Positions 331-40,868 are shown, counted from the stretch's first letter. The stretch: DNA of 64,000 nucleotides from Candidatus Zixiibacteriota bacterium (GCA_029860345.1 JAOUBJ010000004.1:124001-188000), one strand, 5' to 3'. Program-made: numbers and translations. The notes: generated by a model not told the origin, from the letters alone.

Positions 331-1731
331 ATGTCGAATACCGTGCCCGAAAGGTTCGTGATCAATCGTATTTTGAGACACTCATGGCTCCTGGTGGTTT
401 GTCTGTGGTTTGTGGCGGCGGTTCCGGTAGCTGCCCAAGCTGTGGCCGAGGTCGACAGTCTTGAAGGCTCGTGGGCTGAGATGTATCGCTTCTTTGATGA
501 GCCGGTCGACCCAAAAACCTACCTGATCCGGCCCGGTGAAGAACTGCTGGTTACTTTTCTCCAGGCCAAGCTGGGGCCGCTGACTTTGACTGTCGATCCG
601 CAAGGCCGGATCGTGCACCCAACGCTTGGGTTGTTCGACCTGTCGCACAAGTCACTGGCGGAGGCAAGGACACTGCTTGAGGGCGCTTTGGAGAACCTTT
701 ACAAAGTTGAGCAGATCGAAATATCGGTGCTCAAACCGCAGCGGACAGCCGTGCAGGTATCGGGCGCTGTAACCAGGCCGGGTATGTACAAAGGGTTCAC
801 CTCGCATCGTGTCTCAGAAATCATCGAGCAGGCGGGCGGCATTGCCTGGCACGGCTCGACCCGACAGATTGAGTTCACCGGTGGACCTCGTCCTTTGATT
901 ATCGATCTCGACAAAGTCAGGTACCTCGGTGACAATTCTTCAAATCCCTGTCTTTACGCCGGATACAGCATCCACGTCCCCAGTAAATCGGCCCTGCGGG
1001 TCCAGGTAGTAGGCGAGGTCAACCGTCCGCGCGAGATCGAACTGGTACCGGGTGACGGGGTGTCGACTCTCATCGCTCTGGCCGGTGGCTTTCGCGCCGG
1101 TGCAGATGTCTCTCAGGTGAGTATATCCAGAGGCGCCGATGTTGTAATAACTCCCGATGAAGGTGTACTGCCGCCGTTGCAGCAGGGAGACATTATCACC
1201 GTACCGGCTCGTGAGCGTACCCATGATCAGGAAATGCTGAAACTCTTCGGCGCGGTGTCGGCTCCCGGAATGTATGCGTTTTCGACCGGCCTCACGCTGG
1301 AATCACTGGTTGGAAAGGCCGGTGGTTTCACTCAGGAAGCCAGCCGGGGAATGGTGACACTGTTTCGCAAAGCCGGGGCCGATGAATGGGGCCGCATTTC
1401 GGAACGACGCTATCCGATTACCAGCGCCGTGGGGGCCGATGGTAATATACTGGCTATGACCTTAAGAGCGGGAGATTCGGTTTATGTCCCCTTTCAGGTC
1501 GGTTATGTCAACGTTACCGGCGAGGTGCTTAATCCCGGACGGTATCCCTTTATTGATAACAAAGATGCCCTGTTTTACGTCATGACGGCCGGAGGATTTT
1601 TGCCCAGAGCCAACACCGAAGAAATCTCAATCTATAATCGGATAGCCAAGACTACCGCCGAATTCTCTACCGGGGTGATGGTTCACGATGGCGATGAACT
1701 TATCATCAACCTGCGTGAGGAACTCAGATGA
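331..1731 (+). CDS. Polysaccharide export protein with four SLBB domains (Wza-like)
   Basis: Predicted periplasmic/outer-membrane export component for a surface polysaccharide. A hydrophobic signal segment lies at about residues 15-36 and ends in VAAQA. A Poly_export domain follows (about 60-135, beginning YLIRPGE), then four SLBB repeats near 140-185, 223-268, 302-346 and 392-440, each with a G-x-V...PG or equivalent core and a following AGG turn. There is no clear lipobox, so it may not be lipidated as Wza is. The stop overlaps the start of the next gene by four bases, so export and chain-length genes are translationally coupled. The GTG at 358 is an alternative start that fits the upstream promoter better. 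Confidence 0.88.
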   Translation: MSNTVPERFVINRILRHSWLLVVCLWFVAAVPVAAQAVAEVDSLEGSWAEMYRFFDEPVDPKTYLIRPGEELLVTFLQAKLGPLTLTVDPQGRIVHPTLGLFDLSHKSLAEARTLLEGALENLYKVEQIEISVLKPQRTAVQVSGAVTRPGMYKGFTSHRVSEIIEQAGGIAWHGSTRQIEFTGGPRPLIIDLDKVRYLGDNSSNPCLYAGYSIHVPSKSALRVQVVGEVNRPREIELVPGDGVSTLIALAGGFRAGADVSQVSISRGADVVITPDEGVLPPLQQGDIITVPARERTHDQEMLKLFGAVSAPGMYAFSTGLTLESLVGKAGGFTQEASRGMVTLFRKAGADEWGRISERRYPITSAVGADGNILAMTLRAGDSVYVPFQVGYVNVTGEVLNPGRYPFIDNKDALFYVMTAGGFLPRANTEEISIYNRIAKTTAEFSTGVMVHDGDELIINLREELR

Positions 1732-2933
1732 ACTCTACCGGTTCGACCAATCTGTGGCTTCTGATGGAGGTAATGACGCGCCGCCGCACTTTGATCCTGA
1801 GCATTGTCATTGTTGTAACGTTGACCGCCGTTGTCGTGTCGTTGATCCTGCCCAAATACTACCTGGCTACGGCCCTTCTTTTGCCGCCGAAAGATGTGAG
1901 CATCCCGGTGGCCGGACTGGGACGGATATCGGAAGTGGTGTCGGTAACCAAGGGATTGAACTTGCCGGTGTTGGTCACTACATCGGATGTTTACCGTCGC
2001 ATGCTGATGAGCCACCGGATCACCGACGGGATAATGGAGCAGTTTGAACTTGTCGAGCGTTACGGCGCGCGCAATCGGGACGAGGCATACCTGACCCTTT
2101 TGGAGAATGCCGAGTTTTCGGTCACCGACGAAGGCTTGCTGAATGTGGCCGTCGAGGATCGCGATCCAACTATGGCGGCCGAGATGGTCAACAGTTTTGT
2201 CGAACGGCTCGACCAGGTCAATCGGGAGATAGCTACCTCCCGCGCCCGACAAAACCGTGTCTTCATCGAAGGAAGACTTAGTCAGATCACAGCCGAACTT
2301 GATTCCGCACGGAGCGCGTTCGAATCCTTTCAGATGACCCACAAAACGGTCGATTTCACACAGCAAATCAGGCTGGCCGTGGATCAGGCCATCGAACTCA
2401 AGATCAAGCTGGGGGAGATCGATCTGGAACTTGCCATACTCAGGTCCAAACTGGGCGACGACAACGCCGAACTTCAGGATCGCTTACGGCGACGCCAAAC
2501 GGTCGCTCAGCAACTGGACCGACTGGAATCGACCAACAGTGATTCGTCCTTCTTCTCTTTGCCCGTGTCTGCGATTCCCGTGTTGAAGGGTCAGTACGAG
2601 GAACTGTATAGCCGGGTGCGCGTGAACGAAGGACTGTACACCACTCTGCTGGGACAACTGGAACAAGCGAAAATCCAGGAGAACGAGGAGTTGCCGACTA
2701 TCACCGTTCTCGACTGGGCCGTGCCGCCTGAGATGAGAAGCCGACCCAAGCGAACCATAATGGTCCTTTTGGCTTTCGGATTGAGTTTGATAGGCGCGCT
2801 ATTGCTGGCGGCCTGGCTTGAATTTGTGTCGCGATTGAGAACGCAGAGTCCCGACGATTACAAGCGCGTTTCCCAATTCCTCAATGCCTTTCTTGGCTGG
2901 TTGCCGGGAGTAGGAAAACCCAACAAATCCTGA
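1728..2933 (+). CDS. Wzz/GumC-type polysaccharide chain-length protein
   Basis: Inner-membrane polysaccharide co-polymerase expected to work with the SLBB protein encoded just before it. It has a membrane segment at about 21-43, a long periplasmic part rich in predicted coiled coil (about 170-320), a Pro-rich stretch PPEMRSRPKR and a second membrane segment at about 345-370. That is the usual Wzz topology. The cytoplasmic tail is short and carries no BY-kinase domain or tyrosine cluster, so any kinase partner must be encoded elsewhere. It overlaps the upstream gene (ATGA). Family assignment is firm; the polymer is unknown. Confidence 0.85.
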   Translation: MNSTGSTNLWLLMEVMTRRRTLILSIVIVVTLTAVVVSLILPKYYLATALLLPPKDVSIPVAGLGRISEVVSVTKGLNLPVLVTTSDVYRRMLMSHRITDGIMEQFELVERYGARNRDEAYLTLLENAEFSVTDEGLLNVAVEDRDPTMAAEMVNSFVERLDQVNREIATSRARQNRVFIEGRLSQITAELDSARSAFESFQMTHKTVDFTQQIRLAVDQAIELKIKLGEIDLELAILRSKLGDDNAELQDRLRRRQTVAQQLDRLESTNSDSSFFSLPVSAIPVLKGQYEELYSRVRVNEGLYTTLLGQLEQAKIQENEELPTITVLDWAVPPEMRSRPKRTIMVLLAFGLSLIGALLLAAWLEFVSRLRTQSPDDYKRVSQFLNAFLGWLPGVGKPNKS

Positions 2934-21334: not shown

Positions 21335-22306
21335 TCAACCTCCGATTTCGTTCATGTTTTGAGGCACTTCGTAGATCCTGCCGGTCGGCTTCAATTTGAG
21401 TGTCTTATGAAACACTTCGTCAAGCTGGTCGTCGTTCTTATAGGCAATGTCATGGCCTTCTTCTTTCATCAGACATGGCCTCAGTTTGCCGGTCGAGGAC
21501 AAACGCCAGCGAGAACAAGCGCCACAGAACGGCTTGGACTCCGATGCTATGATTCCGATCTTGGCGCCGGAAGTGGTCTTGAAATTGATCGAGGTTGAAT
21601 CGTAAGAAGCCGTACGGACTTCGAGTTGGTATCGCCCGCGGATTATCTCGAGAATGTCATCGGCCGGAATGAAGTTGCTTATCTGGTTTTCACGCGCCTG
21701 ACCGATCCGCATAAGTTCCAGAAAACGAACTTCGATCCCCGTTCGTTCGCTGAAGTCGACAAAGTCCAGAATCTCATCGTCGTTGACATCACGCATGGCC
21801 AGAACATTGAGTTTGGTGTGAAAACCTTGATCGTTGGTGGCTTCTATGGCCCGCATGACTCTCGTGAAATGTTTGGAGTGAGTAATCTGGTTGAAACGTT
21901 CTTCCTTGAGAGAGTCCAGACTGATGTTGATATGTTTACAATTGGTCGTCTTGAGAAACGGCAGCAGCCGCTCGAGCTTTGATGCGTTGGTAGTCAGAGC
22001 CAGCATCTTAAGCGGCAGTTCCGAAAGCCGTGTGACGATCTCATTGAACTCAGGGCGCATGGTCGGCTCGCCGCCTGTCAGTCTGATTTCTTCGACCCCG
22101 TAATCCAGAAGTATCCGGCACAAGCGCACTATTTCATCGGGCGGAATACGGTTGCTGCGATGAGGAAATCTGGCGTCCAGAGGCATGCAATAATGACAGC
22201 GGAAATTGCAGTCTTCCAAAAGGGAGACACGGAGCTTGCGCACTTTTCTTCCGTGGCTATCGATCAGGGGCAGTTTGGTGGTTCGGGCCGGGCTTACAGA
22301 TTCCAT
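21335..22306 (-). CDS. moaA: GTP 3',8-cyclase MoaA (radical SAM)
   Basis: First enzyme of molybdenum cofactor synthesis, converting GTP to 3',8-cyclo-GTP. The radical SAM cluster Cys are C33, C37 and C40 (CNFRCHYC). The SAM-binding GGEP is present (78-81). The second 4Fe-4S cluster ligands are C261, C264 and C278, and the protein ends in the Gly-Gly needed for activity. Length of 323 residues is normal. It heads the operon moaA-moaD-moaE/moeB. moaC, mogA and moeA are not in this window. No molybdenum cofactor riboswitch could be recognised in the 195-base leader. Confidence 0.95.
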   Translation of the reverse strand: MESVSPARTTKLPLIDSHGRKVRKLRVSLLEDCNFRCHYCMPLDARFPHRSNRIPPDEIVRLCRILLDYGVEEIRLTGGEPTMRPEFNEIVTRLSELPLKMLALTTNASKLERLLPFLKTTNCKHINISLDSLKEERFNQITHSKHFTRVMRAIEATNDQGFHTKLNVLAMRDVNDDEILDFVDFSERTGIEVRFLELMRIGQARENQISNFIPADDILEIIRGRYQLEVRTASYDSTSINFKTTSGAKIGIIASESKPFCGACSRWRLSSTGKLRPCLMKEEGHDIAYKNDDQLDEVFHKTLKLKPTGRIYEVPQNMNEIGG

Positions 22307-22501: not shown

Positions 22502-23431
22502 TCAATCCAAGCCGGTGGTTTTCTTTGCAGCTAAGGTCCAGGTTCGGATTTCTGATACCGTTTCGTCAGGGATGTTCCTACTGAATTCGACTAGACGGCA
22601 TCTGTCGAGAAGGACACCAGCTAAAGTATTGTATTCTTCCCATTTGGCCCTGTCTACCGCCTCTGATACGCAAAACGCTTTCAATGGAGTGACAAAAACG
22701 TTCCCTTCGATCCACAATCTAACGAAATCACCGGGTTGTAGCTGTGTCGTCGAATCACGCCAGCTCGTGCCTGTCTTGCATTGAGCAAAGACGATTAGCT
22801 GACCGGGCAAACCGTCAGCAAATGGAACCCAGGCAACCGCATCCAACTTGCCATCCTTCGTATATGTGAGCGTGTTGTGTGGGTTACGAAATCCAGAACC
22901 TTCACGAAGTTCCTGACATAGATTGTCAACCTTATTCCGAAACGTACTTTGGCTGGAAGTTCCAAAGACAAGAGATCGCGCCTTCGACTGCCCAAGGTAA
23001 GTCTTCAAAACCTGAGCCGAAAGAGTCTCAAGCAAATATGTGCCATCAATGCTGGCATGGATGCGATTATCCTTCATCTTCAGGCGCGTACTAAGTAGAA
23101 GGTACATGTACACTATTGACTGAGCGTTTTCGGGATCGGGACAATCGCACTTTAAGACCGTACCTGTCGAGTCAAGAGTAAAGGGATAGCCCGAGCCGCA
23201 GGCAGTTTCCCTATGTTCAATTTCATTCATGACTTCGTCAAGCATCTCTGCGTGCTTATCCTCATCATCATGGCAGCCATCATTTGTTTCGTTGTCGTCA
23301 AGTCGCCCGAGGTCTGCAACGATTTCACTTTCCGATGTGCTTCCACGAATCCAGCACAACAGTTCAGCATAGTCTGCTAACTCATGTGTGCCCGCTTGTG
23401 CAGACGGCGGATGCGGTAATTTGAACGTCAT
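22502..23431 (-). CDS. Putative restriction-type nuclease (PD-(D/E)xK-like, QxK variant)
   Basis: No named family recognised. The C-terminal half has the layout of a PD-(D/E)xK nuclease: KLDAVAW with Asp197, then LIVFAQCKTG with Gln217 and Lys219. This is the D...QxK pattern of Mrr-like enzymes. Glu135 in a preceding helix (YLLETLS) could complete the site. The N-terminal 110 residues are acidic and hold a CDCP motif. The ATG touches the stop of the ParB-like gene (TGAATG), so the two are translationally coupled. With the methyltransferase further upstream, a DNA-cleaving role is inferred. The DNA is visibly A+T-richer than the flanking moa and dnaX genes. Confidence 0.5.
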   Translation of the reverse strand: MTFKLPHPPSAQAGTHELADYAELLCWIRGSTSESEIVADLGRLDDNETNDGCHDDEDKHAEMLDEVMNEIEHRETACGSGYPFTLDSTGTVLKCDCPDPENAQSIVYMYLLLSTRLKMKDNRIHASIDGTYLLETLSAQVLKTYLGQSKARSLVFGTSSQSTFRNKVDNLCQELREGSGFRNPHNTLTYTKDGKLDAVAWVPFADGLPGQLIVFAQCKTGTSWRDSTTQLQPGDFVRLWIEGNVFVTPLKAFCVSEAVDRAKWEEYNTLAGVLLDRCRLVEFSRNIPDETVSEIRTWTLAAKKTTGLD

Positions 23432-24532
23432 TCAGCTCTCCGTCCGACGAGCCTTTTTGCCCGGACTTATCTTGCGTTCCATCTGCTCATAAATATCATC
23501 GGCCAGGTTGGCAACTGTACCGGCGATACGAAGAAGTTCTTCTGAATTATCATAGCCGGCGGTGAGATGGCTGGCGGCCCGTTGGAGTTCGCGCTTGGCT
23601 GCGAGCAGAGCTTCTCCGAAGACCTTAGTCGGTGGAAGACTTAACTCAAAAGAAGCTGCCAAGCCATTACCCTTTCTGAGGGAATCAACAGCCTCAAGAT
23701 TGGCTAAGACATCATCGAGTTGGCCAAGGTGAGGGTTTTGCGATTGAACAACCGGGGGTATGTCAGCCTTCTTGCTTCCATACAGCCAAACACACAACTC
23801 CCCGAGTTTTTTCAGCGCTTCTCTTGGAACTGGATTTCTGGTTTCGGCGTCCGCAGGTTTTAGCGTAAGAAACTTGCTGATGCCGTTGTAACCCAACCCG
23901 GTATACAGATGAGAAAAGGCGAATCGCTGACGAAACCGATCTTCGCGATCATAGACATTCTCCCGCTCCGCTTGCTCTATGACCATCAAGCCGCGATAGA
24001 GGCGCTGCACTGTCTTGTGCCGGTCGCCAATCTGCTCCGCGATGTCCTCCAGTGAGATGTTGTATTCATTGTGAATACTCGAAATGTACTTGGCCTTGGC
24101 ATAGCTGGTCCATTTTGCTGGACCGTTAACATGCTTGAATCCGAGATAATGCCAAGCATCCTTACGTCCTGAGATAGTAGCGGGCAGGTTGTTAAGTTCC
24201 GCAGGATCGAAGTTGGTTACTGTAGGAATACCCCATCCCATCGATTTAGCGAGGTCTGGAACTGTGAGTGCCTTTACAGCAGCGAGTCGCCGGTTCCCCT
24301 CGATAACAATGTACTTTTCGTCTTCTATCGTAACTATCAGCGGTTCATGTGGAAAGAAGCCACACGCTGAAATAGATTGAACGAGTTCTTTCACATCCAT
24401 TGCATCCCAAAGGATGGTAATGATATCGTCATCGGTTGTTCTATCGGTGATCCCATACTCGGCAAGCCGGGGGTTTTTCCAGTCAAAGTGCAAGTCCGCA
24501 GTCGGCAGTTGAACAATCTCCGAATTGGGCAT
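23432..24532 (-). CDS. ParB/Srx-fold N-terminal domain protein of a methyltransferase cassette
   Basis: The first 95 residues form a ParB/sulfiredoxin-like domain. PNSEIVQLPTADLHFDWKNPR opens it and VIEGNRRLAAVKAL (76-89) is the phosphate-binding box, the equivalent of GERR in chromosomal ParB. A helix-turn-helix-like segment follows (about 160-185: ISLEDIAEQIGDRHKTVQRLY). The C-terminal 180 residues are helical with no recognised domain. It is not a chromosomal ParB, because there is no parA neighbour. It lies 12 bases after the methyltransferase with AAGGAG before its ATG, and directly before the nuclease. It may bind DNA and use NTP to direct the other two proteins. Confidence 0.72.
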   Translation of the reverse strand: MPNSEIVQLPTADLHFDWKNPRLAEYGITDRTTDDDIITILWDAMDVKELVQSISACGFFPHEPLIVTIEDEKYIVIEGNRRLAAVKALTVPDLAKSMGWGIPTVTNFDPAELNNLPATISGRKDAWHYLGFKHVNGPAKWTSYAKAKYISSIHNEYNISLEDIAEQIGDRHKTVQRLYRGLMVIEQAERENVYDREDRFRQRFAFSHLYTGLGYNGISKFLTLKPADAETRNPVPREALKKLGELCVWLYGSKKADIPPVVQSQNPHLGQLDDVLANLEAVDSLRKGNGLAASFELSLPPTKVFGEALLAAKRELQRAASHLTAGYDNSEELLRIAGTVANLADDIYEQMERKISPGKKARRTES

Positions 24533-24544
24533 GACTTCTCCTTC

Positions 24545-25432
24545 CTATGCGATTTCCGACAAAGGGTTCTCGTCCCGGCCCATGCGGCAGGTAGACGGCA
24601 TCACGATATTATCTGGCGCAATGATCAACTCTTGGGCTGACCGCTTTGACTGTAATGAGTAACGAATCGGCAGCAACGCCACCTTGCGTGACTGATACAG
24701 TTCTCGTACAAGTGCGCTATCATCGTAGGACATAATCCACGGTAGTGTCTTCTGAGTACGTAGATACTTAGCCAGGAACTTGTGGTCTTTTGCCTCGTAC
24801 GCATTCAAGTAAAGACGTTGTCCTTTGTTCACATAGGGTGGATCGATGTAAACAAAAACACGCTTTCTTCCGCGTCCACGCGGCAGATTCGTCTTCAGAA
24901 AATCGATGGCATCTTTTCGAGAAACATGAATGTTCTTTCGCATCCTGCTGAGCCTTAAGATGCGCTCGGTCAAGGTGTCTCGGTAGAAACGTACACCCAT
25001 GGACCACGCTCCAGATTGCTCATACCCCCCGATCGGCCCCGAACCCGTAAGAACACCCGACCTATTACACCGATTCATGTAGAATGCTGCGAAACCCACA
25101 TCGAACAAACGGTATTTCGACGGATGCGAACAGATTTCGTGTTGCCTCCTCCATTCCGCAATAGTTAATGGCACTGATGCGATACGCTCAACAAACCGGT
25201 CGGTGCGATGGAGAGCGGCTCGCCAGAAGGCATAAATACGGACATCGGCGTCATTCAGATAGACTTCGGGGACTACTCCGTTCTTCAGCAACGTAAGGGC
25301 AGCACCCGCGCCTCCTGCGTAGGGCTCGAAATAGGCGCAGCCCCTGAGATCGTTTTGGTCAATGACGTCGGTGAGAAACTCGGAAAGAATGGTCTTCCCC
25401 CCGGGATACCGAAGTGGGCTGGGATATCTCAT
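24545..25432 (-). CDS. D12-class DNA adenine N6-methyltransferase (Dam family)
   Basis: Transfers methyl from SAM to adenine in DNA. The N-terminus PSPLRYPGGK is the D12-family start. FEPYAGGAGAAL (35-46) is the SAM-binding motif I. YIDPPY (195-200) contains the catalytic DPPY. I chose the ATG at 25432 because GGAG lies eight bases upstream and the family begins here; the frame stays open for 234 more codons, but that stretch runs antisense through the start of dnaX and shows no family similarity. Length (295) suits Dam/DpnM-type enzymes. It heads a three-gene operon with the ParB-like and nuclease genes. The recognition site cannot be predicted. Confidence 0.92.
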   Translation of the reverse strand: MRYPSPLRYPGGKTILSEFLTDVIDQNDLRGCAYFEPYAGGAGAALTLLKNGVVPEVYLNDADVRIYAFWRAALHRTDRFVERIASVPLTIAEWRRQHEICSHPSKYRLFDVGFAAFYMNRCNRSGVLTGSGPIGGYEQSGAWSMGVRFYRDTLTERILRLSRMRKNIHVSRKDAIDFLKTNLPRGRGRKRVFVYIDPPYVNKGQRLYLNAYEAKDHKFLAKYLRTQKTLPWIMSYDDSALVRELYQSRKVALLPIRYSLQSKRSAQELIIAPDNIVMPSTCRMGRDENPLSEIA

Positions 25433-25687
25433 TGCCGATCTCCATTCCTCTCCAAATGCAGTCGGCGCTGCATGTTCGGAAGCAGTCGTCATGGGCATGG
25501 TCCGTAGTCTCAGCGTTTGAGTCATAGCTCTTTGGCGCCTATCGATAGTAATGTCGTTATCCATGAATTCAATGTCAACAATTGCGTTACGGCCATGACA
25601 CCCCCGCCGGGCACTGACTAAGTGGTGGTGAAGCCCTTTATAAAATATGATTCCCCAGCCGGTCGGTTTTGCGTATATTGGTTGTCT

Positions 25688-27364
25688 ATGAGCTATCTGG
25701 TGTTGGCCCGCAAGTATCGTCCGCAACGATTTGAAGACATCGTGGCCCAGGAGCATGTCAGCCGCACCCTGCAAAACGCCGTCAAGAACGACCGCGTGGG
25801 CTCCGGCTATCTGTTCTGTGGACCCCGAGGCACCGGCAAAACAACCACCGCGCGCGTACTGGCCAAGGCTCTCAACTGTGTCAACGGTCCCACGCCCGAT
25901 CCGTGTGGCCAGTGTGACGCCTGCAAAGAGATCACGGCCGGGAGTTCGCTGGATGTACTCGAAATCGACGCCGCCTCCAACACCGGCGTCGACGACGTGC
26001 GCACGCTGCGGGAAAACGTCCGCTATCTGCCGGCCGGTGGCAAGAAACGAATCTATATCATAGACGAAGTGCATCGGCTCTCCGGGGCCGCTTTCGATGC
26101 TCTGCTGAAAACGCTGGAGGAGCCGCCGCCGCATGTGATATTCATGTTCGCCACGACCGAACCGACCAAAGTGCCGGAGACTATTATGTCTCGCACCCAG
26201 CGCTTCGACCTCAAACGGGTCTCGGCCAAGGCGCTGGCCTCACATCTGACCTTGATTGCGCGCAAAGAAGGACTTGAAATCGAGGAGGCGGCCATCAGTT
26301 TGCTGGCCCGCAAGGCCGACGGCTCGGTACGTGATAGTCTGTCGCTGTTGGATCAATTGACCGCCTTTGCCTCGGAGAAAATAACCAGCGAGACGGTGGT
26401 TTCCGCGCTGGGACTGGTCGACCGTCAGATGTTGTTCAGTTTCGTCAACGCTGTTGCCGCCCGTGACAGCAAGGGTGTACTGGCCTTGATCAGGCAGGTG
26501 ATCGAAGGTGGCGGCGATATCTCAGACTTTACAGCCGAGTTGTTGGAACACCTCAGACTGTTGATGGTCTTGGCCACGGATGAAGAAGCCGGTCAGTTGC
26601 TCGGTTTTAGCGGCGACGAGTTGACCGAGCTTTCGCAACAGGCCGGGAATTTCGCGTTGGGCGATATTGTCCGCATGATCAAGATAGGTATGGACCTCAA
26701 CCGTGACCTCAAAAGCAAAAGCGGTCTGGATGAACGACTGCTTTTGGATGTCGCCGCCATCAAGATGGCCGAGATGGAGGGAACGGTTCGCTTTGAAGAG
26801 ATTCTCGCCCACCTGAAACAGGGACCGGCTCCAACCGCCACCGGCAATCTGTTCGGGCCCGATCAAAAAAAAAAGGGTGAACCACAGGCCAGCGCAGGAT
26901 TGAAATTAGTCAGAAGTGAAGAGCCACCTCAGGCGCCAATCGCGGAGCCGTTCAAATCGCGGGCCGTCAATTTGGTTATGATGCGGACAGGCTGGAAAAG
27001 TTTTATTGGTCGTCTCAAACAGAAGAACAGTATGCTGGCCTCGCAGCTGGCTATGGCTGAAGTCCGTGATGTTAAGGACAATCGAATTTTGGCCGTATTT
27101 GGTCGGTCGGCCGGGGTGGCCCGTCAGTTGGCCGAAAAACCAGCCAATGTGAGCCTGATCAAAGCGGCCTTGGCCGATCAGTTTGCCGCTAATCTGAGTA
27201 TAACATTCGAGACCGACTCACAGAAAGATGACGAAAAAATCGATAACGATAAAAAACAGTCCACGAGTGTCGATCTAAAGAAACTGGTGGAAGAATCACC
27301 GCGACTGCAAAAACTGATGGAGAAAGTTGACGGCGAGATCATCGGGGTAAGAAACGGTGAATAA
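25688..27364 (+). CDS. dnaX: DNA polymerase III subunits gamma/tau
   Basis: Clamp-loader ATPase of the replicative polymerase. It starts MSYLVLARKYRPQRFEDIVAQ, the universal DnaX opening, so I use the ATG at 25688 rather than the longer frame. The Walker A motif is GPRGTGKTT (45-53). Zinc ligands are C64, C73, C76 and C79. DEVHRLSG is Walker B, and SRTQRFDLKR contains the arginine finger region. The C-terminal tau part ends at residue 558. A run of ten A at 26865-26874 lies at codons 393-396; a -1 shift there gives G then stop and a gamma form of about 397 residues. It forms a conserved block with ebfC and recR. Confidence 0.96.
   Translation: MSYLVLARKYRPQRFEDIVAQEHVSRTLQNAVKNDRVGSGYLFCGPRGTGKTTTARVLAKALNCVNGPTPDPCGQCDACKEITAGSSLDVLEIDAASNTGVDDVRTLRENVRYLPAGGKKRIYIIDEVHRLSGAAFDALLKTLEEPPPHVIFMFATTEPTKVPETIMSRTQRFDLKRVSAKALASHLTLIARKEGLEIEEAAISLLARKADGSVRDSLSLLDQLTAFASEKITSETVVSALGLVDRQMLFSFVNAVAARDSKGVLALIRQVIEGGGDISDFTAELLEHLRLLMVLATDEEAGQLLGFSGDELTELSQQAGNFALGDIVRMIKIGMDLNRDLKSKSGLDERLLLDVAAIKMAEMEGTVRFEEILAHLKQGPAPTATGNLFGPDQKKKGEPQASAGLKLVRSEEPPQAPIAEPFKSRAVNLVMMRTGWKSFIGRLKQKNSMLASQLAMAEVRDVKDNRILAVFGRSAGVARQLAEKPANVSLIKAALADQFAANLSITFETDSQKDDEKIDNDKKQSTSVDLKKLVEESPRLQKLMEKVDGEIIGVRNGE
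26865..26880 (+). promoter_or_regulatory. A10 slippery run in dnaX with immediate -1 stop
   Basis: Ten consecutive A (26865-26874) are followed by GGG and TGA. In frame 0 the codons read CAA AAA AAA AAG GGT GAA. In the -1 frame, or after gain of one A in the mRNA, they read AAA GGG TGA. That is the arrangement by which Thermus thermophilus (transcriptional slippage on A9) and Escherichia coli (ribosomal shift) make gamma. No strong upstream Shine-Dalgarno or downstream hairpin is obvious, which favours polymerase slippage. Confidence 0.65.
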
Positions 27365-30523: not shown

Positions 30524-30662
30524 GGGGGAAGGTCTCTGTGTTGGTTCCTGTATTTCAGAGTTCATATTAGTTGAATTTGATGATGGTTTTACCGTTCTTC
30601 ATGTTTGTTGGTAAGGAGTAAAGGAAGATATCGATGAATGAGTTTTGTAGGAGATGGCACTC

Positions 30663-32072
30663 ATGATACGTGACCTCAAAATCGGAAACTTCAAGTGCTG
30701 GAGTGATACGGGGACCATCAGAATGTCGCCGATAACATTATTTTTCGGGACGAATAGTTCCGGGAAGTCAAGTATTGGCCAATTCCTAATGATGCTCCGC
30801 CAAACAGTGGACTCTCCTGATAGAAAGGCCGTTTTCTATACCGGTGGTAAGAACTCGGCTGTGCAGTTAGGTTCCTACCAAGACATGGTCTACCAGCGTG
30901 ATTCAGGTGCAAGCATCAGTTTCGATTATACGTGGGACTTGGCAAGCTCTTTGAAAATCAAGGACCCCATTTCACTTAAGTCCTTCACTGGGACACAATT
31001 GGAGTTTGCAGCCGTTGCTGGCATGAAAGATGAAGGTCAGAAAACTCTAATCCTAAACCAATTGAAATATATCCTCAAGGATGACGAAGAAACGGCCCTT
31101 AGCATTCAAATGGCTCTTCGGCAGACAACCAGAATAGAATACGAAGTTGACGCAGAAAACTACACGCTTGTGCGTAACCAAGGTCGAGCATGGTATCCCA
31201 AATCGCCGGTACGATTTTATGGGTTTCCTGACGAAGTAGTCGCCTATTATCAAAATGCAGCATTTGTGCAAGAATTGAATCTCGTGCATGAAAACCTCTT
31301 TCGTTCATTGTGTTATCTCGGTCCGTTGCGGACTAAGGCGGAACGGCTCTATTCATGGACAGGAACCGAGCCAGAACAAGTAGGCTACTCTGGCGAAAAT
31401 ACAGTAGCTGCGATGCTTGCAGCTAAGAACCGCAAGATCAGTTTTGGATATAAACAAACAGCCAAACCTTTTCAACAGCTCATTGCAGAAGAACTGACAA
31501 AAATGGGGCTGATAGAGAGATTTCAGGTTAACGCCATTTCTAAGCAGCGTCAAGAATATGAAGTTAAGGTCTGCACAAAAGGCTCGGAAGATTGGGTTGA
31601 TTTGCCAGATGTGGGGTTTGGGGTTTCACAAGTACTTCCCGTGCTGGTGCAGTGTTTCTATGCACCTCGGAACTCAATCATTATTATGGAACAACCGGAA
31701 ATCCACCTACATCCATCAGCCCAGGCTGCTCTGGCCGATGTCATGATTGACGTAATGAATTCACGAGAAGATGGTTCTGATCGGAACATCCAACTCATTG
31801 TCGAAACGCATTCGGAGCACTTCTTGAGACGGTTGCAACGACGGATAGCTGAGGGGACCATTTCAACCAACAAAGTTTCAGCGTATTTTTCAGATGTATC
31901 GAAGATGCCGGCACGATTGGACACTCTTCAGATAGATATGTTCGGTAATATCATGAATTGGCCGGAGAACTTCTTTGGCGATGACATGGGAGACATAACA
32001 GCGCAGGCCAAAGCCGCGATGGAAAAGAGAATTGATCAAACCTCCGATCATGCAGATACTCCGAATGGTTAG
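30663..32072 (+). CDS. AAA/ABC-type ATPase with DUF3696, partner of a PIN-like nuclease
   Basis: SMC/OLD-like ATPase. The Walker A motif is GTNSSGKSS (about residues 29-37). The signature-like GFGVSQVLPVLVQ, the Walker B IIIMEQPEIHLHP and the H-loop VETHSEHFLRRL follow in order. The tail FGNIMNWPENFFGDDMGD is typical of DUF3696. There is no Toprim or other nuclease domain inside the protein. I use the ATG at 30663, nine bases after AGGAG; the ATG at 30654 touches that site. The next gene overlaps its stop codon. The DNA is A+T-richer than the neighbours. Such ATPases act in anti-phage systems of the Septu/Gabija/OLD type; a defence role here is inferred. Confidence 0.8.
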   Translation: MIRDLKIGNFKCWSDTGTIRMSPITLFFGTNSSGKSSIGQFLMMLRQTVDSPDRKAVFYTGGKNSAVQLGSYQDMVYQRDSGASISFDYTWDLASSLKIKDPISLKSFTGTQLEFAAVAGMKDEGQKTLILNQLKYILKDDEETALSIQMALRQTTRIEYEVDAENYTLVRNQGRAWYPKSPVRFYGFPDEVVAYYQNAAFVQELNLVHENLFRSLCYLGPLRTKAERLYSWTGTEPEQVGYSGENTVAAMLAAKNRKISFGYKQTAKPFQQLIAEELTKMGLIERFQVNAISKQRQEYEVKVCTKGSEDWVDLPDVGFGVSQVLPVLVQCFYAPRNSIIIMEQPEIHLHPSAQAALADVMIDVMNSREDGSDRNIQLIVETHSEHFLRRLQRRIAEGTISTNKVSAYFSDVSKMPARLDTLQIDMFGNIMNWPENFFGDDMGDITAQAKAAMEKRIDQTSDHADTPNG

Positions 32073-32598
32073 TCTTCCCAAGAAATGTGTAGTTGATTCT
32101 AATATTCCCATAAATGCGAATATGGCAACCAAAGCTGGGGCAATCCCTGATGAACTGAGCGAGTGCGTACTTGCATGTATCCAAGCCGTGGAACATGTCG
32201 TTGAAAATGGCGGGCTGGTTGTCGATGTAGGTGGCGAGATATTTGATGAGTATCGCAAGGGTCTATCGATGCGCGGTCAACCTGGGCAAGGCGATGTGTT
32301 TATGAAGTGGCTTCACGACCATCAATGGATGGATACTTTGGTGGATCGCGTCGACATCACCCCAACAGGAGACTCATACGTCGAGTTTCCCGATCACGCC
32401 GAACTCTCCGATTTTGATATTTCTGATAGGAAATTCGTGGCTGTTGCCAAAGCGCACCGAGATGCACCGCCGATACTGCAAGCCACCGACAGCAAATGGT
32501 GGGGTTTTAAGGACGCACTTCATTCGGTTGGGGTTTCGGTGACGTTCTTGTGCCCGGAGTATGTTAGAGCCAAGTACGAACAGAAAATGGACGGATAA
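32065..32598 (+). CDS. PIN-like nuclease encoded with the DUF3696 ATPase
   Basis: The order of acidic residues fits a PIN-domain ribonuclease: Asp in CVVDSNIPI at the N-terminus, Glu in EIFDEYRKGL, Asp in ISDRKFVAVAKAH and Asp in ILQATDSKWW. The predicted start overlaps the ATPase stop by eight bases (ATGGTTAG); an ATG at 32050 is also possible and none has a good ribosome site, which points to translational coupling. The pair looks like a two-gene toxin or defence module in which the ATPase senses and the PIN protein cuts RNA. That role is inferred. Confidence 0.6.
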   Translation: MVSLPKKCVVDSNIPINANMATKAGAIPDELSECVLACIQAVEHVVENGGLVVDVGGEIFDEYRKGLSMRGQPGQGDVFMKWLHDHQWMDTLVDRVDITPTGDSYVEFPDHAELSDFDISDRKFVAVAKAHRDAPPILQATDSKWWGFKDALHSVGVSVTFLCPEYVRAKYEQKMDG

Positions 32599-40433: not shown

Positions 40434-40472
40434 GGTTGGGAAAGTACGATTTCCTAAGGTAATGTCAATCGG

Positions 40473-40868
40473 AATGACACGGTCAAGCCGTGTTTCTCGC
40501 GTATCGCGCGGCGCTGAACCAACAGCATGGGAGCTCGGGGGAACATGTCTCCTCCTGGTATGCCGACTCGTAATGACACGGTCAAGCCGTGTTTCTCGCG
40601 TATCGCGCGGCGCTGAACCAGAAGCATGGGAGCTCGGGGGAACATGTCTCCTCCTGGTATGCCGACTCGTAATGACACGGTCAAGCCGTGTTTCTCGCGT
40701 ATCGCGCGGCGCTGAACCAGAAGCATGGGAGCTCGGGGGAACATGTCTCCTCCTGGTATGCCGACTCGTAATGACACGGTCAAGCCCTGTTTCTCACGCA
40801 TCGCGCGGCGCTGACCCAACAGCATGGGAGCTCGGGGGAACATGTCTCCTAATAGTATGCCGACTCGG
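40473..40868. repeat. Four tandem copies of a 99-bp repeat
   Basis: Copies begin at 40473, 40572, 40671 and 40770. Copies 2 and 3 are nearly identical; 1 and 4 have a few changes. Each holds the palindrome ACACGG-tcaag-CCGTGT (damaged in copy 4). On the minus strand the first three carry AGGAGG four bases before an ATG, and copy 4 has AGGAG two bases before it. Because 99 is divisible by three, frames stay open on both strands; on the minus strand 40843-40454 would encode a 33-residue unit four times. The core palindrome also occurs once near 32753. It lies between divergent genes. Confidence 0.9.

Follow-up and report, generated by a model that had tools for sequence, protein, structure and literature searches.

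The usual view of restriction enzymes binds each of them to a single mark and a single site. The nearest named system to the locus described here appears, from profile matches, to be PD-Lambda-5, with which it shares the methyltransferase (MTase) and the N terminus of a ParB-like protein but not the nuclease; Vassallo et al. described PD-Lambda-5 as RM+Abi-like, in a prophage setting (PMC9519451). Other ParB-fold proteins, DndI and SspE, pair with phosphorothioation, and the mark acts on them in opposite directions: in DndI, mark-stimulated ATP hydrolysis releases the nuclease from self DNA, whereas SspE is a ParB-fold nuclease that needs phosphorothioate and is activated by it (PMC11662687). 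Nucleases next to Dnd genes have been catalogued by Rakesh et al., the available part of whose paper also records that cytosine methylases replace phosphorothioation in CxC-type systems, and makes no mention of a ParB and REase pair (PMC10853773).

The locus lies in a 64,000-nucleotide stretch of DNA (the window) and comprises three genes arranged head to tail in the order MTase, ParB-like protein, and G3 (Table 1). The gaps between them measure 12 and 0 bases, with the ParB stop codon TGA directly abutting the ATG of G3. An earlier note on this DNA had reported three adjacent same-strand reading frames between moaA and dnaX, carrying the motifs DPPY, VIEGNRR, and D197...Q217-x-K219; both the coordinates and the motifs are borne out. 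The A+T-richer composition that it described holds as well, albeit modestly: GC is 0.48–0.51 in the cassette against 0.53–0.58 in most flanking DNA, and the dip also covers moaA. Judged by the profile matches of the MTase, ParB, and G3, the three-gene observation stands far beyond chance.

Table 1. Features of the cassette and its flanks (window coordinates).
Feature	Position	Strand	Description
D12 MTase	24545-25432	(-)	D12-class adenine-N6 DNA methyltransferase, PD-Lambda-5_B family
ParB-like protein	23432-24532	(-)	366 aa, ParB/Srx fold
G3 (gene 3)	22502-23431	(-)	309 aa, predicted winged helix + PD-(D/Q)xK nuclease
G3 codon D197	22841-22843	(-)	D in 82/82 homologues
G3 codons Q217-C218-K219	22775-22783	(-)	Q in 77/82, K219 in 12/82
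moaA (molybdopterin gene)	21335-22306		One flank of the cassette
dnaX ORF	25622-27364	Opposite to cassette	Other flank of the cassette

No repeats were found at the cassette borders, and a clean empty site could not be shown in sister genomes, since moaA of the relatives is only ~32%–34% identical and the neighbouring genes are thus variable too. The moa genes beside the cassette are divergent as well, and 2.9–25.4 kb of the window forms a variable region; in a genome of the same genus (G002), the genes found at window positions 331–2933 lie ~6 kb from dnaX, compared with ~23 kb in the window. Downstream of dnaX, ~5 kb from the cassette and in DNA of 45% GC, PADLOC detects a candidate defence pair, HEC-03, made up of the AAA ATPase HEC-03B (30654–32072, + strand, 1.7e-128) and its small partner HEC-03A (32083–32598, + strand, 1e-33). 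Further along, at 40469–40867, four 99-bp tandem copies (96% match) translate as repeated MFPRAPMLLVQRRAIREKHGLTVSLRVGIPGGD.

The MTase matches the Pfam D12 family (PF02086) at 4.4e-15 and has intact FEPYAGGAG and DPPY motifs. Its match to NCBIfam dam (1.3e-13) falls under the cut-off, and that to PADLOC PD-Lambda-5_B (PDLC04018) reaches 5.5e-101 over residues 27–308, starting just after the methionine at 25432. The match of the ParB-like protein to phrog_3694 extends along its full length (residues 4–351, 3.9e-73); that to ParB_N is weak (0.005), and the PADLOC profiles for PD-Lambda-5_A reach no further than its N-terminal half. The N-terminal fold carries D17xxNPR22, E63-P-L, and E78-G-N-R-R82 and is followed by a helix-turn-helix (HTH) at ~143–181 and then by a helical C terminus. 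Residues D17, N20-P21-R22, E63, E78-G79-N80, and R82 are invariant over 66 homologues, and in this family these positions lie in the nucleotide-binding boxes of ParB. In Foldseek, an AlphaFold2 model built from the homologue alignment (pLDDT 94.1) has matches among the nucleotide-bound structures of ParB, Noc, and KorB (E 4e-6 to 5e-4, prob 1.00), including ParB bound to CTP-gamma-S or CDP (E ~5e-6, prob 1.00). On this model, the protein has a ParB_N fold with nucleotide-binding boxes, that is, a ParB-CTPase fold.

Two other assignments of this protein were rejected. Membership of the DUF262/GmrSD family fails because PF03235 (GmrSD_N/DUF262) scores 12.6 bits (E 0.15) against a cut-off of 33.2, and a Pfam search found no HNH domain in the cassette proteins. 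Assignment as a partition ParB of the ParABS type fails because the cassette adjoins no ParA gene in the window, lying instead between moa genes and dnaX. Nor does any ParA-like cluster stand out among those that recur beside related loci.

G3 has no match in Pfam, NCBIfam, or PADLOC but hits two function-unknown phage families (phrog_14650 at 7.4e-18, and phrog_3984). A profile search of the PDB returned a single match, to MspJI (4f0p, E 0.012), and it covers precisely the catalytic core. Foldseek likewise ranks MspJI first (prob 1.00, E 3.4e-3) for an AlphaFold2 model built from the homologue alignment (pLDDT 92.5); the whole-chain TM-score is only 0.30, and hence the fold call rests on the core. 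Ahead of the nuclease domain, residues 15–95 form a helix-strand-helix-helix-strand-strand segment, read here as a probable winged helix. In Mrr, a winged helix likewise precedes the nuclease. Weak matches to Mrr_cat (PF04471) occur in 3 of the 82 G3 homologues (best E 0.023) and not in the G3 of the window; neither an SRA-like 5mC reader nor a sulfur-binding domain was recognised in G3. Profile, motif, and structural evidence together point to G3 being a winged helix followed by a PD-(D/Q)xK nuclease.

The active-site residues sharpen this prediction. Q217 is replaced by G in three homologues (L024, L027, and L109), and K219 is the minority state, K227—mostly as W-x-x-K—occurring in 71 of 82. 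Loss of the lysine in most homologues was ruled out, as column analysis showed migration between the two positions: 11 sequences have only 219, 70 only 227, one both, and none neither (Fisher p 8.6e-13, a value that ignores the relatedness of the sequences). That no member lacks both is to be expected if the catalytic lysine has migrated. The window G3 has the lysine at the classical position 219, and its catalytic site (D197, Q217, and K219) appears intact. The reading of the third gene as a nuclease, which the earlier note had staked on its not folding as something else, is thus strengthened by the MspJI core match and the lysine reciprocity.

Related loci were drawn from a ParB alignment (A2) as 80 bacterial and 80 viral loci, in each case the 80 best, out of 180 and 121 relatives, respectively; with five loci from phages or plasmids and the window itself, the set comes to 166. 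A G3 relative follows ParB directly, on the same strand and within 150 bp, at 161 of these 166 best-scoring loci, a count biased by seeds taken from paired loci and by partly redundant viral contigs. The five unpaired loci are L057, L062, and L117, all cut by contig ends, together with L084 and L085 (483 aa). Single-protein scans with the window G3 and a broad G3 alignment (A1) yielded no G3 relatives; these were recovered with closer G3 alignments, and searching from the G3 side then placed ParB upstream at 46 of 47 loci, the exception being cut by a contig start. This second set includes a ParB, G3, and D12 locus (L200) in a genome of the window's own class. Computationally, ParB–G3 pairing is near-obligate. 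At L084, the ParB N terminus is instead fused to an AAA ATPase in a 722-aa protein (648–2816; full-length match to PDC-M38A, 3.6e-267), by its profile match a case in which the ParB-fold front end carries a different effector.

Marking genes accompany almost every pair. The partner is a C5 MTase in 90 of the 161 pairs, a D12 MTase in 32, and an N6/N4-type MTase in 11 (133 in all, 124 of them within 100 bp), and dndC, dndD, and/or dndE are present in 19. Representative partners match PF00145 at 9.5e-61 (C5) and PF01555 at 3.3e-15 (N6/N4); at L065, a Flagellimonas onchidii module, DndC (6.4e-125) and DndD (2e-76) are above the NCBIfam cut-offs and DndE (3.7e-17) is under its cut-off. No locus among the 161 pairs has both an MTase and Dnd genes. 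Nine have neither; in seven of them the contig breaks off within ~400 bases, and the other two are L004 and L075. Exchange of marks and their mutual exclusivity are, like the genes, folds, and motifs, direct computational observations. The suspicion that homologues of the ParB-like and nuclease genes might only rarely adjoin an MTase can therefore be set aside; the restriction-modification logic first proposed gains support from these comparisons, but its premise that the mark is methylation does not hold throughout, given the 19 DndCDE-linked loci (L037, L044, L045, L050, L051, L053, L055, L058, L059, L063, L064, L065, L067, L071, L074, L077, L078, L081, and L083).

Between ParB and G3, pairwise distances show a correlation of 0.87 in the C5 set and 0.90 in the D12 set, against 0.58 and 0.46, respectively, for ParB and the MTase. 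ParB and G3 thus seem to co-evolve tightly and the MTase loosely; the latter correlations nevertheless exceed those of shuffles, and exchange of the MTase is therefore not free. In a ParB tree of 103 rows, unrooted and built by a quick method, the partner labels need 8 changes. Dnd-linked members form one supported group, joining C5-linked rows, and D12 and N4/N6 labels interleave, with at least three N4/N6 label changes forced by starred branches. Together, the tight and looser correlations and the label changes suggest that ParB–G3 is the constant element and the marking machinery the exchangeable one. At many Dnd-linked loci, the DndE gene is ~525 aa long, with a DndE-like start and then a HerA/TraC-like ATPase part. 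A Vsr mismatch endonuclease adjoins C5-type versions at L033, L042, L073, and L130, as expected where m5C is really made. Beside ParB–G3 at L004, L039, L046, L073, and L079, mostly on actinobacterial contigs, lies a Z1-domain (MzaC-like) helicase.

The window ParB is closest to relatives from a Nitrospirae bin (65%–66% identity) and from Pseudomonas yangonensis (64%); in each, a D12 MTase lies upstream. None of 60 relatives has a ParB of the window type, and 4 of the 60 have PD-Lambda-5_A-like proteins; the cassette is hence sporadic and was probably acquired horizontally. Many ParB–G3 homologues lie within prophages, and some modules are chromosomal, with Dnd genes and without phage genes. 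At 39 loci, the module adjoins portal or gpA in P2-type phages, in a region that Vassallo et al. regard as a hotspot for defence (PMC9519451).

Prophage Wphi of Escherichia coli W contains a C5 version, annotated as 'ParB N-terminal domain-containing protein, hypothetical protein, DNA cytosine methyltransferase'. Its proteins are WP_000368931 (ParB), WP_000570053 (G3), and WP_001143634 (C5 MTase). This version recurs at ≥99% in 103 of 5426 complete E. coli genomes, and a diverged version is present in two checked genomes among 36 others. In strain SCEC020026, the cassette is intact within a decayed P2-type prophage whose portal and gpA are truncated and whose capsid genes are missing. Among the records listed, four E. 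coli copies are broken, three by insertion sequences (IS) and one by a split frame, and in all four the break falls in G3 with ParB and the MTase intact. From gene length alone, the chance of this is ~0.013 (1038/3051 bases, to the fourth power), although the sample is small and two of the insertions are apparently at one site. Such a pattern is expected if loss of the nuclease is tolerated and loss of the MTase is not. In strain E2, an IS lies upstream of the module.

Taken together, these observations make it probable that the cassette is a restriction-modification-type defence. The D12 MTase would mark the cell's own DNA at its target sites, and the ParB-fold protein and G3 would act as an obligate restriction pair. 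ParB would bind nucleoside triphosphate and DNA and serve as the switch or clamp that decides whether G3 cuts, coupling the mark to cleavage so that unmarked DNA is attacked and marked self DNA spared. This reading draws on the ParB–G3 pairing, the exclusivity of MTase and Dnd genes, the lysine reciprocity, the MspJI fold, and the distance correlations, as well as on the P2 hotspot, the intact cassette in a decayed prophage, the breaks confined to G3 among the records listed, and Vsr. The DNA restricted would presumably be that of phages or plasmids. The cutting decision would most likely lie with the ParB NTP cycle, for which DndI offers a precedent. ParB–G3 must then match the sequence specificity of many different MTases, possibly through direct contact with the modification enzyme or through clamp loading at the MTase's sites. 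A bolder proposal, that the pair is chemistry-agnostic and reads marked versus unmarked DNA whatever the mark (m6A, m5C, N4/N6, or phosphorothioate), is a real possibility, but one towards which we lean slightly less than evenly.

That the marks protect is itself something we infer, and the opposite polarity deserves weight. ParB–G3 could sense modification in a Type IV-like or SspE-like manner, the MTase or Dnd genes supplying an activating or orienting mark that licenses or stimulates the nuclease. The nearest nuclease structure, MspJI, is indeed a modification-dependent enzyme, the winged helix ahead of the nuclease recalls Mrr, and SspE requires its mark, its relative DndI being instead released from self DNA (PMC11662687). 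Nevertheless, nearly all loci encode an MTase of their own, and a cell whose nuclease cut marked DNA would destroy itself; G3 has no recognised SRA or sulfur-binding domain, and the E. coli breaks listed, in G3 with the MTase intact, are those expected of a protective mark. Triggering by the mark is thus unlikely.

Two further readings place the cassette elsewhere. It might be PD-Lambda-5, with its ParB-fold protein, D12 MTase, and restriction plus abortive infection, to which a gene has been added: the MTase match to PD-Lambda-5_B (5e-101) and the ParB N-terminal match to PD-Lambda-5_A suggest as much, and at L010, L016, L024, and L025 a PD-Lambda-5_A-like gene lies beside ParB–G3, apparently sharing one D12 MTase with it. 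Yet a further C-terminal domain of ~250 residues, present in PD-Lambda-5_A, is absent from the cassette, five PD-Lambda-5_A-like loci lack G3, and most ParB–G3 pairs have a C5 MTase or Dnd rather than D12, which renders this very improbable. Nor is it credible, save as an outside chance, that restriction is not involved at all and that ParB serves a mobile element in partition or transcription, that the MTase shields this element from host restriction, and that G3 is a processing or repair nuclease. Many homologues do reside in prophages, and ParB-fold proteins commonly partition or regulate; however, the clusters that recur as neighbours include no evident ParA-like gene, the module is also chromosomal with Dnd genes and without phage genes, and it stays intact in a decayed prophage.

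Restriction-modification is thus retained as the preferred reading, in a type of system that, on comparative sequence evidence, is real and widespread and appears uncharacterised, its restriction-modification logic being well supported by comparison. One conserved switch–nuclease pair occurs with three MTase classes and, in a single clade, with phosphorothioation genes. If the pair restricts, one effector would connect methylation-based and sulfur-based immunity, and how a ParB-fold NTPase reads DNA marks would become directly testable, with the E. coli W copy as a ready test bed. Were the chemistry-agnostic proposal true, evolution could plug the same cutter onto unrelated self-marking systems. 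A function can also be proposed for the unknown phage families phrog_3694, phrog_14650, and phrog_3984.

In the literature searched, outside which lie most subscription papers and preprints, no named system combining ParB, a PD-(D/E)xK nuclease, and an MTase was found, in agreement with the earlier note, which knew of none with exactly these three parts. PD-Lambda-5 resembles the cassette in its D12 MTase of the same family, its ParB-fold N terminus, and its prophage setting, but it has two genes and no separate PD-(D/Q)xK nuclease gene, and its A protein is a single chain of ~430–590 aa with the extra C-terminal domain. Membership was rejected: the best match of the 366-aa cassette ParB spans residues 8–170 and profile positions 13–177 of 473, compared with 1–464 of 466 for the full PD-Lambda-5_A of L016. 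The G3 profile has no match in the five PD-Lambda-5_A-like loci of relatives, and G3 as a diverged C-terminal part of PD-Lambda-5_A was ruled out on that ground.

SspE, DndI, and GmrSD likewise tie a ParB-superfamily NTPase to a nuclease and a DNA mark. They are mostly one chain, with a DUF262 ParB fold, an HNH nuclease, and a DGQQR motif, whereas the cassette has two genes, the motif EGNRR, an HTH, and a nuclease of the PD-(D/Q)xK type, and pairs of this kind occur mostly with MTases. MspJI shares the D...Q-x-K catalytic core with G3 but cuts m5C DNA alone by means of an SRA-like reader, in place of which G3 comes with ParB as its partner and with a cognate marking enzyme. The HEPN-ParB-methylase operons of Anantharaman et al. 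(2013) likewise combine ParB and a DNA methylase with an effector, there a HEPN RNase rather than a PD-(D/Q)xK nuclease (PMC3710099). As in Type II restriction-modification, an MTase adjoins a nuclease of the PD-(D/E)xK fold; what sets the cassette apart is its obligate ParB partner and a single nuclease family with m6A, m5C, N4/N6, and phosphorothioate partners.
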